Under the pieces are notes generated by a model, which saw only the letters and a list, made by a program, of their open reading frames with translations, was not told the DNA's origin and ran no database searches. A stretch of DNA of 38,175 bases from an uncultured bacterium (GTDB lineage Bacteria > Bacillota_I > Bacilli_A > RFN20 > CAG-826): contig CASEKC010000011.1 of assembly GCA_949288485.1 (NCBI GenBank), positions 1-38,175 on the forward strand, in the 5' to 3' direction. Below are positions 658 to 38,175 of the stretch, piece by piece. A program made the position numbers and the translations under genes. Each line of letters begins with the position of its first letter. Position 1 is the first letter of the stretch.

Positions 658-2442
658 ATGGTTGATATTAATGTTTTATATGCCGGAAATAGAGCCGTAA
701 TAAAAGGCATTTTACTTTCATGCCTATCTTTAGTCATGAAAAATAAAAATTCTAATATTAATATTTTTATTTTAACTGCTGATTTTAGTGATATTAATTC
801 TAAATATATACCAATTTTAAAAGATGATATTGTTAAAATCGAAACAATATTAAAAGTCTATAATCCAAATACTAGGGTTATTTTATTAGATAAAGAAGAA
901 GTTATCTTAAAAAATCATGATACATTTAAAAAACTTGATAATTGGTTTACTCCATATTCTCTTTTAAGACTTTGCGCTGGAGAAATTCCTTCTTTGCCAG
1001 AGAAAATATTATATTTAGATAGCGATACTATGGTTTATAACTCTTTAGAAGAATTATTTACTATGAATGAAATAGATGATTATGTTTTAGGTATTGTTAT
1101 AGATAAAATGGGGAAATTTTGGATAAGAAAAGATTATTTTAATTCTGGTGTTTTATTTATAAATTTAAAAAAAGCAAGAGAGGTTAATTTTTTTGAAGAA
1201 GTTTTTGATTTGGTAAAAACTAAACATTTTCTCTTTTTAGATCAAAGTGCTTTAAATGCGGTCGCTAAAAAACATGGCTATGCTTTATATTTAGATGGTA
1301 AATATAATGAACAAAGAAATGTAAAAAAAGATACTGTTATAAAACATTTTTGTAAAGGCATTAAATGGACTCCTTTTTTCCATGTTTATAATATTAAGCA
1401 ATGGCAATTCGAGAAAGTTCATAAATCTTTAAAAATTTATGAATTTGATGATATTTTTGAAGAATATAAAAAAATAGAAAGTAGTTTTAAAGAGAATAAT
1501 ATTATTCTGGAAATAGAACATTTAAGAAAAAGTTATGGTAGTTTAAAAGCTGTTAACGATATATCTTTTAAAGTAAAAAAAGGAAGTTTGTTTGCTTTTT
1601 TAGGCGTTAATGGTGCTGGGAAATCAACGACAATTAATATAATCTGTTCAATTTTAAAGAAGGATAGTGGACGTGTTATTGTTTGTGGACATGATATTGA
1701 TAATGACAAAGAGAATCAATTAATAAAAGAAGAAATTGGAATTGTTTTTCAAAATAGTGTCCTTGATAATGATTTAACGGTTTTAGAAAATTTAAAAATT
1801 AGAACATCTTTTTATTCTTTAACAAAAAAAGAATCTGATGAAAAATTAAAAAGAATTACTGAATTACTAGAATTAGAGCCAATTTTAAATCAACAAGTTA
1901 AAAAATTAAGTGGCGGTCAAAAGAGAAGGGTTGATATCGCTAGAGCCATGGTACATGAGCCAAAATTATTAATTTTAGATGAACCAACGACTGGTTTAGA
2001 CCCTAAAACTCGTTTAAATGTTTGGACATTAATTGATGAAATTAGAGAAAAAACTGGAATGACAGTATTTTTAACAACACATTATTTAGAAGAGGCTGAT
2101 CAAGCAACATATGTTGTTATAATGGATAAGGGCAGAATAATAGCTCAAGGAACACCTAATGATTTGAAGAATGCATATAGCAGCGATTATGTTCTAGCTT
2201 TTTTAAAGAAAAATGATAAATTTGAAGAAATTTTAAAAGAAAATAGTGAAAATTTTGTTTATGATTTTGATAAAAAGGCATATAAAATTTTTGTTGAAAC
2301 CCCATTAAAAGGTAAAAACTTAATTGAAAAATATTCTAATTTTATTACTGATTTTGAACTTTTAAAAGGAAATATGGATGACGTATTCTTGAATGTAACT
2401 GGTAAAAATATTGTTTTTGAAAATGGTGAGAATAATGAATAA
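658..2442 (+). CDS. Glycosyltransferase family 8 domain fused to ABC transporter ATPase
   Basis: Single 594-residue frame with two unrelated catalytic units. Residues 1 to about 275 look like a GT8 (LPS-type/glycogenin-like) glycosyltransferase: hydrophobic start, metal-binding DSD at 121-123 (context ILYLDSDTMVY), FNSGV at 161-165, LDQSALN near 195, and a C-terminal H230 in IKHFCKG. Residues about 283-590 are a DrrA/CcmA-type ABC ATPase: Walker A GVNGAGKST (316-324), signature LSGGQ (417-421), Walker B LLILDEP (437-443), H-loop His475 and a C-terminal extension. No Met lies at the junction, so the ATPase cannot easily start alone. The permease gene overlaps its end by 8 bases, so the ATPase half very likely energises that permease. 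The GT half is expected to be cytoplasmic and may glycosylate the exported substrate or a surface lipid (inference). No SD; ATG chosen as the first in the frame. Confidence 0.85.
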   Translation: MVDINVLYAGNRAVIKGILLSCLSLVMKNKNSNINIFILTADFSDINSKYIPILKDDIVKIETILKVYNPNTRVILLDKEEVILKNHDTFKKLDNWFTPYSLLRLCAGEIPSLPEKILYLDSDTMVYNSLEELFTMNEIDDYVLGIVIDKMGKFWIRKDYFNSGVLFINLKKAREVNFFEEVFDLVKTKHFLFLDQSALNAVAKKHGYALYLDGKYNEQRNVKKDTVIKHFCKGIKWTPFFHVYNIKQWQFEKVHKSLKIYEFDDIFEEYKKIESSFKENNIILEIEHLRKSYGSLKAVNDISFKVKKGSLFAFLGVNGAGKSTTINIICSILKKDSGRVIVCGHDIDNDKENQLIKEEIGIVFQNSVLDNDLTVLENLKIRTSFYSLTKKESDEKLKRITELLELEPILNQQVKKLSGGQKRRVDIARAMVHEPKLLILDEPTTGLDPKTRLNVWTLIDEIREKTGMTVFLTTHYLEEADQATYVVIMDKGRIIAQGTPNDLKNAYSSDYVLAFLKKNDKFEEILKENSENFVYDFDKKAYKIFVETPLKGKNLIEKYSNFITDFELLKGNMDDVFLNVTGKNIVFENGENNE

Positions 2443-31154: not shown

Positions 31155-31190
31155 AAAAATTCTTCCTCATTTGGGAAGAATTTTTATTTT
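31155..31190. terminator. Bidirectional terminator between tdk and gmk-like gene
   Basis: Perfect 12-pair stem: arm 31155-31166 (AAAAATTCTTCC), loop TCATTTG, arm 31174-31185 (GGAAGAATTTTT); overlaps the stop of the minus-strand gene. Confidence 0.88.
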
Positions 31191-31717
31191 ATACGAGAAA
31201 TATAATCATCATATATTTCTTTAGCGATTTCATCAGTAGTTTTATTATCTTCATCGATAAATTTATCGATATATTTATTTAAAGAAGTATCAAATTTAAA
31301 GCGGTCATGATAAATACGTTTATGGATTTCTTCTTCACTATCACCTCTTTTTCTCATTCTTTCTGTTCTTTCGATTTCATCCGCATTTAAAAAATAAGAA
31401 TAAATATTTTTATATTGTGATAATTTAAAAGCGATTAATCCATTACTTTCAACAATCAAAACAGTTTTATCATCAATAAGTTTTTTCTCTGTTCCATAAT
31501 AATTATTGTTATAGAAAGTAGATTCTATAAATTCATTATTATTTCTCATCTTAATAAAAGTATCCTCAGTTAGAAAATTATAGTCTAAGCCATTAATTTC
31601 ATTTACACGAGGAGCTCTAGTTGTAGAAGTAACAAATTTTTTAAAGCCATATTTAGTGGTTAATATTTTTGCAATCTCAGTTTTTCCACTAGCGCTTGGT
31701 CCAACAAGTATAATCAT
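31184..31717 (-). CDS. Guanylate kinase-like protein, short form
   Basis: 177 residues; typical Gmk is about 200. P-loop GPSASGKT (6-13), GMP-binding STTRAPRVNEINGLDYNF, EFIESTFYNNNYYGT, and the lid RMRKRGDSEEEIHKR. Converts GMP to GDP with ATP. Missing residues are mainly at the C-terminus and in the core strands, so it could be a second, specialised copy (for example of the kind found with signalling or DNA-modification systems). TATAAT (minus strand 31729-31724) lies exactly 6 bases before the ATG and there is no SD: leaderless. Confidence 0.88.
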   Translation of the reverse strand: MIILVGPSASGKTEIAKILTTKYGFKKFVTSTTRAPRVNEINGLDYNFLTEDTFIKMRNNNEFIESTFYNNNYYGTEKKLIDDKTVLIVESNGLIAFKLSQYKNIYSYFLNADEIERTERMRKRGDSEEEIHKRIYHDRFKFDTSLNKYIDKFIDEDNKTTDEIAKEIYDDYISRIK

Positions 31718-31836: not shown

Positions 31837-32955
31837 ATGTTCAAAGGATTTTTACTTTTACCGATAGTTTTATTTTCGTGTGGATTAGGAAATAAGGATT
31901 TTTTAAATAAACAAGGCGAAATTAAAACAAGAATGGCAAATTTTTATACAAATACATGTCATGAAGTTTATGAACATAATTCGACACCTTATTTGTTTTC
32001 GATAAAAAATTTCCGTTTAACGAGTATGGATCTTGCTGCTCATGGAGAGGTTACAATTTCATATGAAGGAGCTGACTTTTCGCAAGCATTAAGTTTTGTT
32101 TTTAAAGTTTATAATGAAGATGATGAAGTAATTGATGAAGTTTCATATTTAAAAAGTCGAAATGAGGGGATAGATCGTACTTTTACCGTAAATTTTAAAA
32201 ATAAAGAAAATTGGATTGGCTTATGTAAATTCGTTTTTACTTGGAGATATCTTTATAATGGAAAAAATGGAACTTTTGCCAATTTTTATTTAAGGTTTCA
32301 AAGTGGAAGATTGGATCCACCTTATTATGATATGGTTAATCCATATATCGCTGAAATTTATCCAAATGAAGGATATAGTGAAATTTTTGGTGATTATATA
32401 AGAATTAAAAATTTAAAAGAAATTTATGAAATACCAACATATGGTAAATTTGATTTAAATGATCTTGGAATTACTTATTATTTAGAAGCAATGAGTAAAG
32501 ATCAGCTTCGTGGCCAAATGATTTTATATACCAACATTCAAAGGCGTTTAGAATCACAAAATGTTGAAGCTGAAAAAGCTCAATTAGCTTATTTTTATTA
32601 TGATTATCCAATTCTTAATTTAAGTTTCGATAAGTCTTTAGGCAGAGATGATTCAGCTTATATAGTAAATAATAAAAATTATTATTACAATCCTTCAACT
32701 TATGAAATGAATAAGGGTTGGAAAAGCGGCTTTGAAAAAACAAAACAATTTTATTTACCTCGTGTTTTATATCCTTATTTAAAAGAAGTTACATTTAGGG
32801 TTTCTTTCCCAGCTGCTTTAAAGAATTCAATAGTTTTTGGTTTTAGTTTTACTGTTAGATTTTTAAAAGCTAATTACAATACAACTTTTGAAGTTGTTGG
32901 CGAGATTGAAAATGAAATTGTTGATGAAGATTTAGAGGAGGTGGTTATTCCATGA
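31837..32955 (+). CDS. Putative lipoprotein, first gene of the Tad-like operon
   Basis: 372 residues, not recognised. N-terminus MFKGFLLLPIVLFSCGLGNK looks like a short lipoprotein signal with a lipobox (VLFSC, Cys15). The rest is soluble, rich in aromatic residues and predicted beta strands (SFVFKVYNEDDEVIDE, KFVFTWRYLY, FRVSFPAA), suggesting beta-sandwich domains exposed outside. No Cys other than Cys15 and two or three scattered. ATG 31837 has AAAGGAGGA ending 6 bases upstream; a GTG at 31819 would add six codons. Stop overlaps the next start (ATGA). Perhaps an outer-face component of the filament machine (inference). Confidence 0.7.
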   Translation: MFKGFLLLPIVLFSCGLGNKDFLNKQGEIKTRMANFYTNTCHEVYEHNSTPYLFSIKNFRLTSMDLAAHGEVTISYEGADFSQALSFVFKVYNEDDEVIDEVSYLKSRNEGIDRTFTVNFKNKENWIGLCKFVFTWRYLYNGKNGTFANFYLRFQSGRLDPPYYDMVNPYIAEIYPNEGYSEIFGDYIRIKNLKEIYEIPTYGKFDLNDLGITYYLEAMSKDQLRGQMILYTNIQRRLESQNVEAEKAQLAYFYYDYPILNLSFDKSLGRDDSAYIVNNKNYYYNPSTYEMNKGWKSGFEKTKQFYLPRVLYPYLKEVTFRVSFPAALKNSIVFGFSFTVRFLKANYNTTFEVVGEIENEIVDEDLEEVVIP

Positions 32956-33452
32956 TGTTAACACCTTTAATATATTGTTCGATAATTTTAGTTTCATCGA
33001 TTTCAACATTCTTTTTAGGAACTCAAGGGATGTATGTCAATCGTACATTTTTAAATATGCCGGTTTCACTATTCGAAGCTAATGTTATAAGTATTGGAGA
33101 GGGAAATACTGAAAATGATCCAAATGTTTTGAATATAATTCCCAGAGTTATTAAAGGTGATGATGATTCAAACAAGGAAGAAAATGTAGAAACACGTTAT
33201 TATTGTTTTGATAAAGATAATTTAGAAAATGATATAAAAAATTATTTAAACGTTAATTTAAAAGGGAAAGTTGATAGTTATCAAATTGCTTTAAAATATT
33301 ACATTTTTGAAAATGATGAATTTATTGAAGATAATAGCGATGAAGTTAATGCTGTAAAAATAAGATTTAAATGTCGATATTATAAATATTTTGAATTTGA
33401 TGAAAACTTAAGTTTTTACATAAAAGAATTTACAGAGGAAACATATGAATGA
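32952..33452 (+). CDS. Anchored extracytoplasmic protein of the Tad-like operon
   Basis: 166 residues, not recognised. One N-terminal membrane helix (about 4-24, LTPLIYCSIILVSSISTFFLG), then an acidic soluble domain with many Asp/Glu and Tyr. The helix-then-globular layout resembles minor pseudopilins or TadG-like proteins, but no prepilin Gly-Phe/Glu5 signature is present. SD GGAGGTGG lies 7 bases before ATG 32952; the ATG overlaps the TGA of the lipoprotein gene. Confidence 0.65.
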   Translation: MMLTPLIYCSIILVSSISTFFLGTQGMYVNRTFLNMPVSLFEANVISIGEGNTENDPNVLNIIPRVIKGDDDSNKEENVETRYYCFDKDNLENDIKNYLNVNLKGKVDSYQIALKYYIFENDEFIEDNSDEVNAVKIRFKCRYYKYFEFDENLSFYIKEFTEETYE

Positions 33453-34566
33453 ACGACTTGACCAATTTTTTAAGAAAAGTTTTTTGAAAGACTTATTAAA
33501 CGTAGAAACAATTACAGATATTTCTTATAACGGAGAAAATATTTATTACCAAGATAACATTGAAGGAAGAAAAAAATATGATAAAGAAATTTCTTCTAAA
33601 GAAGCTTATGAATTTATTCGTCAAATAGCAAACTTAACAGATTCGCAATTTAGTGTTTCCTCTCCAATTTTAGATATATCAATCGATAAATATAGGATTA
33701 ATGCTGTTCATTATATTTTAGCTAGAAAAAATAGAGAACAGGCTATTAATTTTTCGATAAGAATCGGATATTTATCATTAAGAATTAAAAATGATGGAAG
33801 TTTTATTAGTAAAAAAGGTATTGAGTTAATAGATTTATTTTTATCAAATAACCAGTCAATTATTATTGGAGGTCAAACAAGTAGTGGTAAAACCGAATTT
33901 CAAAAGTTTTTGCTATCTAGATTAAAAGAGAATACCAGAATCGTGATTCTTGATAATGTTGATGAATTAGAAACAGATGATTTTTTAAAAAATATTGATT
34001 CTCAAACGTGGTTATTAAAAAACAATATTGATCTAACTTTTGACGATTTAGTTAAAAATGCTTTAAGAAATAATCCAGATTGGTTGATAGTTAGTGAAGC
34101 ACGTGGAGAAGAAATGTTATCAATTTTAAATTCGGCAATGAGTGGGCATCCAACTATTTCTACAATTCATGCCAAAGATTCTTCTTTTATATATCGAAGA
34201 ATGGGAAGAATGTGTTTATTAAAAAACGAGAATCTTAAATATAACGAAGTGTTAGAAGACATTTATGATCATTTTAAATTAGTAATTTATGTAGGAAAAG
34301 AAGTTGGAAATGATGGACATATTAATCGATATGTTAAAAAAATAGCAACTAATTATAAAAATAAATATTATGAATTATTTTCATACCCATCAAATTATTA
34401 TCCATTGCCTGAGGAATTAAAAGTAGAACTTAAATTTTCAAATAAAGACTTTATTAATTTTAATAAGATGTGGGCAAATAAAGATATGAAAGGAGAGATA
34501 AATGAAAAAGAAGCTAAATTTAAAAAGCCTAAATTCAACGAGAATAGCCGTTTACTTACTAGTTAG
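33445..34566 (+). CDS. CpaF/TadA-type secretion ATPase (VirB11/PulE family)
   Basis: 373 residues. N-terminal domain to about 130, then Walker A GGQTSSGKT (142-150), Asp box VILDNVDELE (167-176), Walker B DWLIVSEAR (212-220), His box GHPTISTIHA (234-243). No PulE-type Cys4 zinc motif, so closer to TadA/CpaF and archaeal PilT-N ATPases than to PilB/GspE. It should power assembly of a filament or a secretion process. It overlaps the preceding stop by 8 bases and the following gene by 65 bases. Confidence 0.93.
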   Translation: MNERLDQFFKKSFLKDLLNVETITDISYNGENIYYQDNIEGRKKYDKEISSKEAYEFIRQIANLTDSQFSVSSPILDISIDKYRINAVHYILARKNREQAINFSIRIGYLSLRIKNDGSFISKKGIELIDLFLSNNQSIIIGGQTSSGKTEFQKFLLSRLKENTRIVILDNVDELETDDFLKNIDSQTWLLKNNIDLTFDDLVKNALRNNPDWLIVSEARGEEMLSILNSAMSGHPTISTIHAKDSSFIYRRMGRMCLLKNENLKYNEVLEDIYDHFKLVIYVGKEVGNDGHINRYVKKIATNYKNKYYELFSYPSNYYPLPEELKVELKFSNKDFINFNKMWANKDMKGEINEKEAKFKKPKFNENSRLLTS

Positions 34567-35266
34567 TATTTTAATAGCCTTATTAAATTTCTTTACTACA
34601 AGAAACTGGATTTATTCATTAGTGTTATTAATGATTTGTTTAGTTTTTTTCTTTGTTTTAATCGAGAAAGAATATCAAAAATATAAAAAAATTAATCGAA
34701 CTACTCATGAATGTGTAAATTTTATAAATAATTTTATTATTTCATTAAGTATTCATAATACTATTTCTGCGACATTTGAAATGATTAAAGAATCATTTAG
34801 TGGAGAGTTAAAAAAAGAAGTTGATAGTATTGAACATTTAAATATAGTCGAAAAGCTTGAATATTTAAGTGATTATTTTAATTCCTCTTTATATGATTTC
34901 TTTTTAAAGATTATTCATCAATATGAATATAATGGTGGGGATATTATTGGAATTTCTCAAATATTAATTTTCGATAGTAGAAACGTTGAAACTTCGCTTG
35001 ATAATTTTATTTCCGTATCTAAAAGAAAATTTATTGAATTCATTATCCTTTGGGGAATTACAATGGCAATATTACTTATTTTACAATTTGCTTTATCAAT
35101 GTTTTATGACACGATTTTAAATATGTCATTTTATGCTCCATCAATATTTATTTTCTTCATAATGTTTTTAATATTTTTATATTTCTTTTTAAAACATAAT
35201 TTTAACTTAAGTTTTATTAATGAATGGAGGGAAAAAGATAATGAAAAACCTCAGACAAAAAATTGA
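34502..35266 (+). CDS. TadB-like type II secretion F-domain membrane protein
   Basis: 254 residues. Two N-terminal helices (about 15-32 and 37-53), a cytoplasmic T2SF domain (about 65-165: FIISLSIHNTISATFEMIKE, then YNGGDIIGISQIL), and two C-terminal helices (about 180-200, 210-235). Matches the TadB/GspF platform protein arrangement. ATG 34502 is inside the ATPase gene with AGGAGAGA 3-10 bases upstream. Confidence 0.82.
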   Translation: MKKKLNLKSLNSTRIAVYLLVSILIALLNFFTTRNWIYSLVLLMICLVFFFVLIEKEYQKYKKINRTTHECVNFINNFIISLSIHNTISATFEMIKESFSGELKKEVDSIEHLNIVEKLEYLSDYFNSSLYDFFLKIIHQYEYNGGDIIGISQILIFDSRNVETSLDNFISVSKRKFIEFIILWGITMAILLILQFALSMFYDTILNMSFYAPSIFIFFIMFLIFLYFFLKHNFNLSFINEWREKDNEKPQTKN

Positions 35267-35909
35267 ATCACTATCTTTAAATTTTACAAAAGAAATTAGT
35301 ATTTTAGTCATTATAAATGTTATTTTAGTTGCTCTAGCAGTTGTGATGTTTTTCATAAATTTATCAATTTTAGCAATTGTAGCAATTATAGTAACGATAG
35401 TTGTATTCAATATTTTTTATTTAAATCGTTATAACACAATGATCTTAAATAAAGAAAAGAAATTAGATAATGAATTTATTGAAGTATTTTCATATTTAAG
35501 AATTTATTTATATAACGAAGAAACTGTTTATACATCTTTAAAAAATATAAGTGAATTTGCTTCACCTAAAATGAAAGAAAGAATTGAACAATTATTAAGC
35601 GATATTGATGAAGATAAAACAGTTCAACCATTTATTACATTTGCTAGATTATTTAAAAATAAAGTAATAGAAGAAGTAATGATTGCTTTGTATGAAATGG
35701 TAAATAGTGGAAATAAAGATATTTACTTGAATCAATTTATTAAAGTTTTCGAAGATTTTAAAACTCGAAACGAAAATGAAAATGAAGAAAAAAGATATCG
35801 AAAATTCGATACATTAAATATGTTATCTATTATAGGAAGTGGTTATATAATGATCATTTTAGCATTATGTATTGTAAAACTACTTGGGGAGGCTACAAAT
35901 GGGTTCTAA
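35241..35909 (+). CDS. TadC-like second platform membrane protein
   Basis: 222 residues. Two N-terminal helices close together (about 20-40, 42-63), a T2SF-like cytoplasmic domain (LDNEFIEVFSYLRIYLYNEETVYTSL in part, EEVMIALYEMVNSGNKD), and one C-terminal helix (about 195-215). Tad systems carry exactly such a TadB/TadC pair. ATG 35241 has GGAGGG 8 bases upstream; ATG 35220 is a less likely start. Overlaps the 3' end of the TadB-like gene by 26 bases. Confidence 0.78.
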   Translation: MKNLRQKIESLSLNFTKEISILVIINVILVALAVVMFFINLSILAIVAIIVTIVVFNIFYLNRYNTMILNKEKKLDNEFIEVFSYLRIYLYNEETVYTSLKNISEFASPKMKERIEQLLSDIDEDKTVQPFITFARLFKNKVIEEVMIALYEMVNSGNKDIYLNQFIKVFEDFKTRNENENEEKRYRKFDTLNMLSIIGSGYIMIILALCIVKLLGEATNGF

Positions 35910-36243
35910 ATTAGGTTTAATTTTATCGATTTCAATTATCTTTTTCGCATTTCTTTTTGGAGCAGATTTGATAATGATTCAACTTCAATATACGGAGTTA
36001 GATTCCTTGTCAGCTACTATTTCTTATAAGATTTCTAAAGAAGCTGAAATAAGTGAATCATTATTAATGATGTGTGAAGAAAGAAATATAAATATTGTTG
36101 CTTTAAATCCAGAAGTAAGTGGATATCAAAAAGGAGATGTTTTTTCTTATATTTTATCAAGAGAATACACGCCATTAGTATTAGGAAATCAACCTTTTGA
36201 TATCACAATTACAAGACATGCAGTTATTAGTATTTTAAATTAA
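35899..36243 (+). CDS. TadE-like small pseudopilin-type protein
   Basis: 114 residues from ATG 35899 with GGGGAGG 6 bases upstream; overlaps the TadC-like gene by 11 bases. One N-terminal membrane helix (about 5-27, GLILSISIIFFAFLFGADLI), then a small soluble domain (about 30-114) ending TITRHAVISIL. TM-plus-small-domain and operon position suggest a TadE/TadF-like minor subunit. No database-grade motif visible. Confidence 0.6.
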   Translation: MGSKLGLILSISIIFFAFLFGADLIMIQLQYTELDSLSATISYKISKEAEISESLLMMCEERNINIVALNPEVSGYQKGDVFSYILSREYTPLVLGNQPFDITITRHAVISILN

Positions 36244-36256
36244 GGAGGTTAACAAA

Positions 36257-36475
36257 ATGTCAGAAATTAAAGGTCAAATCTTAGGAGTTATTTTAGTATT
36301 AGCAGTATTTGGAGTAGTTGGGACAACGCTTTATACAGCATTTAAAACAGCAAGTAATGATGTTGCTAATAAAATTACTGGTTCAGTAAATGAAGATAAT
36401 ATTAAAAATAATACAAATTCATTAAATATTATTGATAATTCAAATATTGATTTAGAAAGACTTTTAACTTATTAA
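36257..36475 (+). CDS. Flp/archaellin-like prepilin, probable major subunit
   Basis: 72 residues. Short charged leader MSEIKG, then Q and a 20-residue hydrophobic helix (ILGVILVLAVFGVVGTTLYT) and a small Asn-rich polar tail. KG-Q before the helix resembles the class III/archaeal prepilin peptidase site; the Glu5 of canonical Flp is absent. Strong SD AGGAGG (36243-36248) 8 bases before the ATG, the best in the operon, fits a highly expressed subunit. No prepilin peptidase gene is in the window. Followed directly by a strong terminator, so it is the last gene. Confidence 0.68.
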   Translation: MSEIKGQILGVILVLAVFGVVGTTLYTAFKTASNDVANKITGSVNEDNIKNNTNSLNIIDNSNIDLERLLTY

Positions 36476-36479
36476 AATA

Positions 36480-36510
36480 AAAAACTTGGAGAAATTCCAA
36501 GTTTTTTTTA
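36480..36510 (+). terminator. Terminator of the Tad-like operon
   Basis: AAAACTTGGA (36481-36490), GAAAT, TCCAAGTTTT (36496-36505), then T run. Confidence 0.9.
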
Positions 36511-37433: not shown

Positions 37434-37706
37434 TTATTTAATTCTATTTTCTATATCGGATATAACTTTTTTAGCTTTTACTAAAATTTTAAAATCTTCA
37501 TCTGATATATAGATTGCATTTTTATCATCAATTAATTCTGATACAGGTATTTTATATAATGTTGCTAAAAGATTAGCATAATCAAAATTTAATCTAATCT
37601 TACCAGTTTCGATGTTGGAATAACTAGGTTGGGTTATTAATAAATATTTAGCTATTTCCTTTTGGGAATAATTATTTTTTTGTCTGTAATATTTTAGTCT
37701 ATTCAT
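37434..37706 (-). CDS. XRE-family regulator next to the Mrr-like nuclease
   Basis: 90 residues. HTH_3 domain at about 3-57: LKYYRQKNNYSQKEIAKYLL, then ITQPSYSNIETGKIRLNFDYANLLATLYKIPVSELI (in part). A short tail with DEDFKILVKAKKVI follows. Overlaps the nuclease stop by 8 bases, so the two are cotranscribed; it probably controls the nuclease and perhaps the downstream peptide (inference). Confidence 0.9.
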   Translation of the reverse strand: MNRLKYYRQKNNYSQKEIAKYLLITQPSYSNIETGKIRLNFDYANLLATLYKIPVSELIDDKNAIYISDEDFKILVKAKKVISDIENRIK

Positions 37707-38175
37707 TTATTAACTTTAAGATTTCTTCTCCATATTTTTCAATTTTCTTTTCACCTATACCAGAAATTGCTTTTAAGTCATTTATGTTTTTTGGTTTTAT
37801 TGTTGCAATTTCTTTTGCAGTATCATTTGAAAAAATCATATATGTTGGAATTTTTTCTTCTTTAGATTTTTGTTTTCTAAAGAAAATTAACTTTTCTAAT
37901 ATATTTATATCAGGATCATATGTTTTAAATTTTTGGTTTAATTTTCTAAATTTAATATTATTAATTTTTTTTAGTTCATCTAACATTTGATAGATAAATT
38001 CTCTACCTTTTATTAAAATTTCATGATTTTTTGCAAAATGATTTGCTTCTGATGTAGGTCTTGATGTTGTAATTAGAAATTGATGGTCTAATTTATAATA
38101 ATCTTTTGCTTCAAGCATTTTTGTAAGTTCACTTTTAGGAATTGGGGTAGACCATCTTTTAGCTTGAATACCAAT
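37699..38175 (-). CDS. Mrr-like restriction endonuclease with C-terminal HRDC domain (5' end outside window)
   Basis: Open to the right edge; about 158 codons visible. Near the edge is IGIQAKRWSTPI, the QxK part of the PD-(D/E)xK nuclease core as in Mrr, followed by FLITTSRPTSEANHFAKNHE and a GREF helix, typical of the Mrr catalytic domain. The last about 75 residues, ending INDLKAISGIGEKKIEKYGEEIL, are an HRDC domain, a nucleic-acid-binding module of RecQ helicases. Mrr nucleases cut modified or foreign DNA. The first visible Met (38118) is internal. Followed by an XRE regulator overlapping its stop. Confidence 0.82.
   Translation of the reverse strand: MGIQAKRWSTPIPKSELTKMLEAKDYYKLDHQFLITTSRPTSEANHFAKNHEILIKGREFIYQMLDELKKINNIKFRKLNQKFKTYDPDINILEKLIFFRKQKSKEEKIPTYMIFSNDTAKEIATIKPKNINDLKAISGIGEKKIEKYGEEILKLINE

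Follow-up and report, generated by a model that had tools for sequence, protein, structure and literature searches.

Can a Tad-type machine work in bacteria in which no prepilin peptidase is recognisable? The question is raised by seven genes at positions 31837 to 36475 of contig CASEKC010000011.1, from an uncultured bacterium of the Bacilli_A lineage (RFN20; CAG-826). The whole stretch of 38,175 nucleotides that was analysed is called the window here, and its source genome (1.36 Mb, 15 contigs) is 96% complete. In order, the genes encode a secreted protein (P1), a bitopic protein (P2), an assembly ATPase (TadA), two platform proteins (TadB and TadC), a TadE-like protein and a small Flp-like subunit (Flp). 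To our knowledge, prepilin processing is regarded as obligatory in all type IV filaments. A conserved Tad-type machine that is under purifying selection and lacks an A24 peptidase would mean either that its subunits are assembled unprocessed or that another enzyme family acts on them. On balance, we favour the view that the operon specifies a minimal Tad-like (type IVc-like) adhesion filament or pseudopilus, chromosomally fixed and vertically inherited in a mostly wall-less lineage of Bacilli, that works without a recognisable A24 enzyme.

The operon and its conservation

The initial annotation of the window described seven overlapping genes on one strand, closed by a terminator. The open reading frames (ORFs) confirm this: all seven have the same orientation, each overlaps the next or lies at most 13 nt from it, and a hairpin follows the last (Table 1). 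The operon is real and non-random. Iterated profiles grown from the window were compared with 62 loci, 59 of them from the window's own family. TadA, TadB and TadC were found in all 62, and the own-family loci contained P2 (59/59), P1 (58/59) and, in every untruncated locus except one, Flp. The loci read keep the full set of seven genes. The operon is also present in four other families of its order (f2, f6, f7 and f8), where some genes were missed at contig ends or as uncalled ORFs. The ATPase was matched in 126 of the 146 family genomes sampled, or 124 after two weak matches (E ~ 6e-4 and 9e-4) were dropped, and in 136 of 196 genomes of the order (E <= 1e-15). The annotated lineage specificity therefore stands in the sense of conservation through an order of gut bacteria with small genomes, and not in the sense of a strain-specific trait.

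A divergent guanylate-kinase-like gene of about 180 aa forms a constant upstream flank in most loci, and an acyl carrier protein gene lies downstream in most genera. Ratios of nonsynonymous to synonymous substitution (dN/dS) between the window and its nearest relative were 0.09 for TadA, 0.11 for TadB, 0.09 for TadC, 0.15 for the TadE-like protein, 0.16 for P2, 0.23 for P1 and 0.62 for Flp, which varies in its C-terminal part. In the ATPase tree the own-order sequences form one clade (support 0.92) that follows family lines. These comparisons indicate that the operon is under purifying selection, vertically inherited and chromosomally fixed. They bear on the idea that it is a functionless remnant of a pLS20-like conjugative element, which its closest named relatives, conjugation modules, might suggest. 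Such a remnant is highly improbable in view of the selection, the vertical pattern and the constant flanks, and also of the surroundings: the ten of the window's ORFs that were scanned are housekeeping genes, with no transfer genes (VirB4, VirD4 or relaxase) among them.

Absence of an A24 prepilin peptidase

A Tad pilus is expected to have TadV/FppA or an exchangeable A24 peptidase. Neither the operon nor the window genome has one: searches of the genome with PF01478, and with an A24 profile built mainly on proteins of the window's own order, gave no match. What had initially been annotated for the operon thus holds for the whole genome. Above the curated cut-off, A24 proteins turned up in 4 of the 146 family genomes and in 8 of the 196 order genomes, and there was no association with the operon (5/136 genomes with it and 3/60 without it, p 0.70). 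In a class-wide sample, the cut-off was exceeded in one of 44 operon-bearing genomes of the window's own order; among genomes with TadA from outside that order, it was exceeded in 64 of 68 (Fisher p ~ 4e-25). Additionally, a relative in family f9 encodes a 122-aa TadV directly behind TadC, which the A24 model detects easily. Because the controls in the class-wide sample and the f9 TadV were detected, the missing A24 is characteristic of the order; the search did not fail.

A candidate for a hidden A24 protein in genome G113, a 94-aa frame, scored 23.1 bits with PF01478, which is under the cut-off, and was lost with the own-order profile. In two family genomes that were read closely (G137 and G132), A24 belongs to a separate type IVa pilus cluster (PilB-PilC-PilD) with GFTLIE or GFTIVE prepilins. 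The A24 peptidases of the family's separate pilus clusters show GxAD in place of the usual GxGD (L102, 9171-10103; L103, 12894-13724; L104, 13155-13985).

The Flp-like subunit and its leader

We counted residues in 46 non-redundant Flp sequences. All have a leader of six residues, in which M1 and E3 are invariant (46/46), position 2 is Ser or Gly throughout, K5 is present in 45 and position 6 is G in 41 and A in 5, the latter in families f2, f6 and f8. The leader is followed by Q7 (43/46) and L9 (45/46). Positions 1-10 are the most conserved part of Flp, and on average the leader is more conserved than the hydrophobic stretch that follows. G(-1), or A, is present, but the Glu5 and Tyr6 of a canonical Flp are absent and these positions are hydrophobic. 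The alignment thus bears out the annotated KG-Q cleavage-like site without Glu5. Pfam and NCBIfam gave nothing useful for Flp.

An initiator Met that precedes Ser or Gly is removable by methionine aminopeptidase, and because position 2 is one of these two residues the initiator Met of Flp could be removed in this way. Prepilin peptidases tolerate either Gly or Ala before the cleavage point, and cleavage after both is known (PMC3244431); therefore, the KG-Q or KA-Q motif alone cannot decide whether the leader is removed. The motif (KG-Q in 41 of the 46 sequences, KA-Q in 5) lies exactly at the type III leader cleavage position, and the TadV of the f9 relative means that the ancestral machine may have had a peptidase. 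Both points would suit a Tad pilus of the usual kind whose enzyme has been exchanged, so that a peptidase from a different or very divergent family cuts the Flp leader. We regard this as possible but doubtful, since no candidate enzyme was found and the near-invariance of E3 and K5 is not expected of ordinary prepilin leaders. Our tentative proposal is that Flp keeps its six-residue leader, the invariant Glu3 and near-invariant Lys5 taking the place of the contact between Glu5 and the N-terminus; a whole order, mostly wall-less, might then run a Tad-type motor without a prepilin peptidase.

Locus L086 (4255-8535), from the window's genus, has a very divergent ATPase and no Flp; where Flp would be expected it encodes two different membrane-anchored proteins, of 320 and 195 aa.

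The ATPase and the platform proteins

TadA matches T2SSE (Pfam) at 1e-20, the TadA model TIGR03819 at 2e-25 and the VirB11 model at 2e-31, the last two under the model cut-offs (that of TIGR03819 being an equivalog cut-off), and solved CpaF and VirB11 structures at 1e-12 to 1e-14 (CpaF, 1e-12). The match to the FlaI model (7e-18) is far under the cut-off and weaker than those to TadA and VirB11. Judged by the FlaI model, the likeness to an archaellum suggested in the initial annotation comes down to a shared ATPase superfamily. Profiles of TadB and TadC derived from the window match proteins annotated as 'type II secretion system F family' at 4e-18 and 3e-21, and PF00482 was matched in 5 of 27 relatives. 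By these comparisons the operon contains both the TadA/CpaF-type ATPase and the paired T2SSF-type platform proteins of a Tad (type IVc) pilus. The annotation of a minimal Tad-like operon is supported.

Relation to known Tad-like systems

The Tad or type IVc (Flp) pilus also has in common with the operon a TadE-like protein and a very small helical Flp-like protein with KG before the helix. Besides the differences in peptidase and Flp described above, the operon lacks TadZ, RcpC, TadD, TadG and a secretin (TadZ and RcpC were not searched genome-wide). Because an A24 peptidase and an Flp with Glu5/Tyr6 were both looked for and neither was found, this is not a canonical Tad pilus; the machine is Tad-like in its parts and probably in its action.

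In the ATPase tree, the own-order clade is sister to a group comprising pLS20-type plasmids, an ATPase resembling those of integrative and conjugative elements and f9 (joint clade 0.99). The closest named plasmid matches are conjugative or mobilizable plasmids of Bacillus and Virgibacillus; searches of phages and plasmids gave no close copy of the ATPase. The pLS20-type plasmids of Bacillaceae (pNARUSE, L121; B. atrophaeus, L058; Virgibacillus, L123) have the gene order P2-like, TadA/VirB11-like, TadB, TadC, TadE (DUF4320-like) and then helical proteins of 47-63 aa. Their P2 is homologous to that of the window, their ATPases are sister to those of the window's order and there is no A24 gene in the stretches read. 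The plasmids, however, carry VirD4, a pLS20_p028 protein and a large thioester adhesin alongside, whereas the chromosomal operon has none of these adjacent and has P1 instead, and the small plasmid proteins are without the MSEIKG leader. Tree, gene order and P2 homology identify the Tad-like modules of pLS20-type conjugative plasmids as the nearest relatives. This would tie a chromosomal surface machine of gut bacteria to the Tad-like module that conjugative plasmids of Gram-positive bacteria carry, which is not yet well understood.

The DUF5411/RcpC-type Tad loci of family f17 (L126, L131, L132, L140 and L141) are also similar, with a large secreted protein, a P2-like DUF5411 protein, TadA, TadB, TadC, a short protein with an MKEATG leader and TadE-like proteins. 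They differ in having RcpC and in that their genomes nearly always contain A24. By eye, M-x-E-x-x-G is in register between the window Flp and the f17 protein, but homology was not significant (hhalign 6.6%). The MSHA (mannose-sensitive haemagglutinin) pilus locus likewise has no peptidase gene of its own and borrows the peptidase of another system in its genome (PMC6668835), whereas the window genome holds none. Gram-positive Tad loci without recognisable pilins yet with tadV have been described (PMC3244431), and for Myxococcus KilP an unidentified peptidase is assumed (PMC12075869). A literature search that did not cover subscription journals yielded no description of Tad-type machinery in genomes that have no prepilin peptidase at all.

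P1, P2 and the TadE-like protein

P1 has an N-terminal signal sequence, and its alignment shows 13-27% identity between most lineages. The initial annotation called it a lipoprotein, but P1 is not a conserved lipoprotein: of 55 loci, the window and one other have a lipobox, in a loose form. The annotation's view that the first two products are unlike known Tad parts does not hold for P2, as described below. Pfam and NCBIfam gave no useful match for P1. The structure predicted for P1 is all-beta (predicted local distance difference test score, pLDDT, 75) with an Ig/Fn3-like part at 47-185; a structure search returned generic Ig/Fn3-like matches only, with low TM-scores, and identified no family. 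In pLS20 the gene upstream of the module encodes the TIE thioester adhesin, which is required for efficient mating (PMC8092201). No thioester domain was found in P1, which has no Pfam match, whereas the adhesin of L058 has TED_2. We propose that P1 is the counterpart of the TIE adhesin by position and not by homology.

P1 is duplicated in tandem in two relatives (L044, 4225-6532; L045, 4233-6532). In a close relative (L043, 5892-7008), P1 and P2 are split into shorter frames and the other operon genes are intact, by assembly error or decay. Most other genera have an extra gene of about 110 aa upstream of P1 (L053, 5239-5658), absent in the window's genus, with the conserved motif WWxxxYSxxxYYRxKxxAxxxF and no Pfam match; it is possibly a regulator of the operon.

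The predicted structure of P2 (pLDDT 77.5) begins with an N-terminal helix of 31 residues, followed by a second helix and a sheet of four strands. Pilins and minor pilins generally share the layout modelled here. The initial annotation held that the lack of any prepilin peptidase in a complete genome, together with small proteins predicted to be unlike pilins, would refute its reading. The first of these was found in the 96% complete genome; the second was not, as the predicted P2, a long helix followed by a beta sheet, is not un-pilin-like. Foldseek gave nothing for P2 at E <= 0.001. Matches by VIA-align reached Z <=7.1 and were to unrelated folds, with the type IV-like pilin TTHA1218 at Z 5.2 (rmsd, root mean square deviation, 2.8 over 76 residues), and no family was identified. 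Pfam and NCBIfam gave nothing useful for either P2 or the TadE-like protein. P2 does match the product of the gene that precedes VirB11/TadA on pLS20-type plasmids (hhalign probability 76%, E 2e-5). These plasmid proteins resemble DUF5411 in profile comparison; a direct comparison of P2 with DUF5411 was not significant, and only the plasmid proteins bridge the two. The TadE-like protein has no Pfam TadE match and is named from its position, its size and the match of its profile to DUF4320-like proteins of pLS20-type plasmids.

Cell envelope and possible function

The penicillin-binding transpeptidase domain PF00905 has no match in the window genome and is present within the family only in genus g6 and in G016. 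Because it is missing elsewhere, most of the family is probably wall-less, in keeping with the Mollicutes-like background that was first annotated. Its survival only in g6 and G016 (family f1) is possibly a record of wall loss in progress. Families f6 and f8 have PF00905 and the operon but no A24 in the genomes searched; therefore, wall loss does not simply account for the missing peptidase. A 2011 survey found Mollicutes to be the sole class without type IV pilus genes (PMC3244431), and if our reading is true a filament system would be added to mostly wall-less Bacilli.

We infer a filament and a role in adhesion as follows. TadA would power the TadB/TadC platform, which would raise the small helical Flp-like subunit from the membrane to form a thin filament or a short pseudopilus. 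P2 and the TadE-like protein may prime or cap the fibre, and P1, secreted and fast-evolving, may be the adhesin or tip. The MSEIKG leader might stay on the subunit and serve in docking, or be cut off by a still unrecognised enzyme. A cell with one membrane and mostly no wall would need no secretin, pilotin or alignment complex.

Several points weigh against this proposal. Support for a filament is at the gene level, and the adhesin role of P1 is argued from gene position, secretion and fast evolution; the structure search gave no convincing match for it. The window's own TadB and TadC gave no match to PF00482, and Flp is missing from L086. The constant MKEATG leader of f17, an unrelated Bacilli family with A24, shows that leader conservation is not unique to peptidase-free lineages. 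Finally, metagenome-assembled genomes may miss genes, yet 142 of the 146 family genomes have no A24 above the cut-off.

Instead, the same parts could serve type II-like secretion of P1 or other proteins, as a pseudopilus that makes no filament beyond the membrane. The very short Flp, the few parts and the position of the gene for secreted P1 at the head of the operon are all compatible with this; however, P1 has its own signal sequence, and in a monoderm without a wall there is no second barrier to call for piston-driven export, so we consider it unlikely. The uptake machine raised in the initial annotation, a competence pilus replacing ComG, would accord with the ComEC-type proteins of 92 of the 146 family genomes, among them the window genome with a 677-aa frame, and with the lack of a ComG-like cluster with A24 in most genomes. 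It is nevertheless very unlikely, because ComEC and the operon are independent in their distribution (ComEC in 80/124 genomes with the operon and 12/22 without it, Fisher p 0.47); genus g9, without the operon, retains ComEC.

Features of the window

Table 1. Coordinates of the operon and of associated features in the window
Feature	Position	Strand	Length (aa)	Remarks
P1	31837..32955	+	372	Secreted, fast-evolving, beta-rich; proposed adhesin or filament-tip protein; occupies the thioester adhesin slot of pLS20 plasmids
P2	32952..33452	+	166	Predicted N-terminal membrane helix and extracellular alpha/beta domain; bitopic, minor-pilin-like, without cleavage motif
TadA/CpaF-type assembly ATPase	33445..34566	+	373	Walker A GGQTSSGKT, SEARGEE and GHPTISTIHA intact
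TadB-like platform protein	34502..35266	+	254	
TadC-like platform protein	35220..35909	+	229	Better-looking start at 35241, preceded by GGAGG
TadE-like bitopic protein	35899..36243	+	114	Without cleavage site
Flp-like subunit	36257..36475	+	72	MSEIKG-QILGVILVLAVFG; without Glu5 and Tyr6
Codons of the six-residue leader MSEIKG	36257..36274	+		Leader conserved among 46 Flp sequences
Intrinsic-terminator-like hairpin at operon end	36479..36507	+		Palindromic; the scan lists it on the - strand
Guanylate-kinase-like flanking gene (context only)	31184..31717	-		Divergent; PF00625, 76.6 bits; conserved neighbour

Two ORFs elsewhere in the window have joined domains. At 37699-38175 (- strand), at the window end, an HRDC domain is joined to an Mrr-type nuclease fragment. 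The ORF at 658-2442 (+ strand) encodes 594 aa and shows an unusual fusion, in which a glycosyltransferase family 8 domain (6-230) is joined with the ATPase domain of an ABC transporter (299-445).

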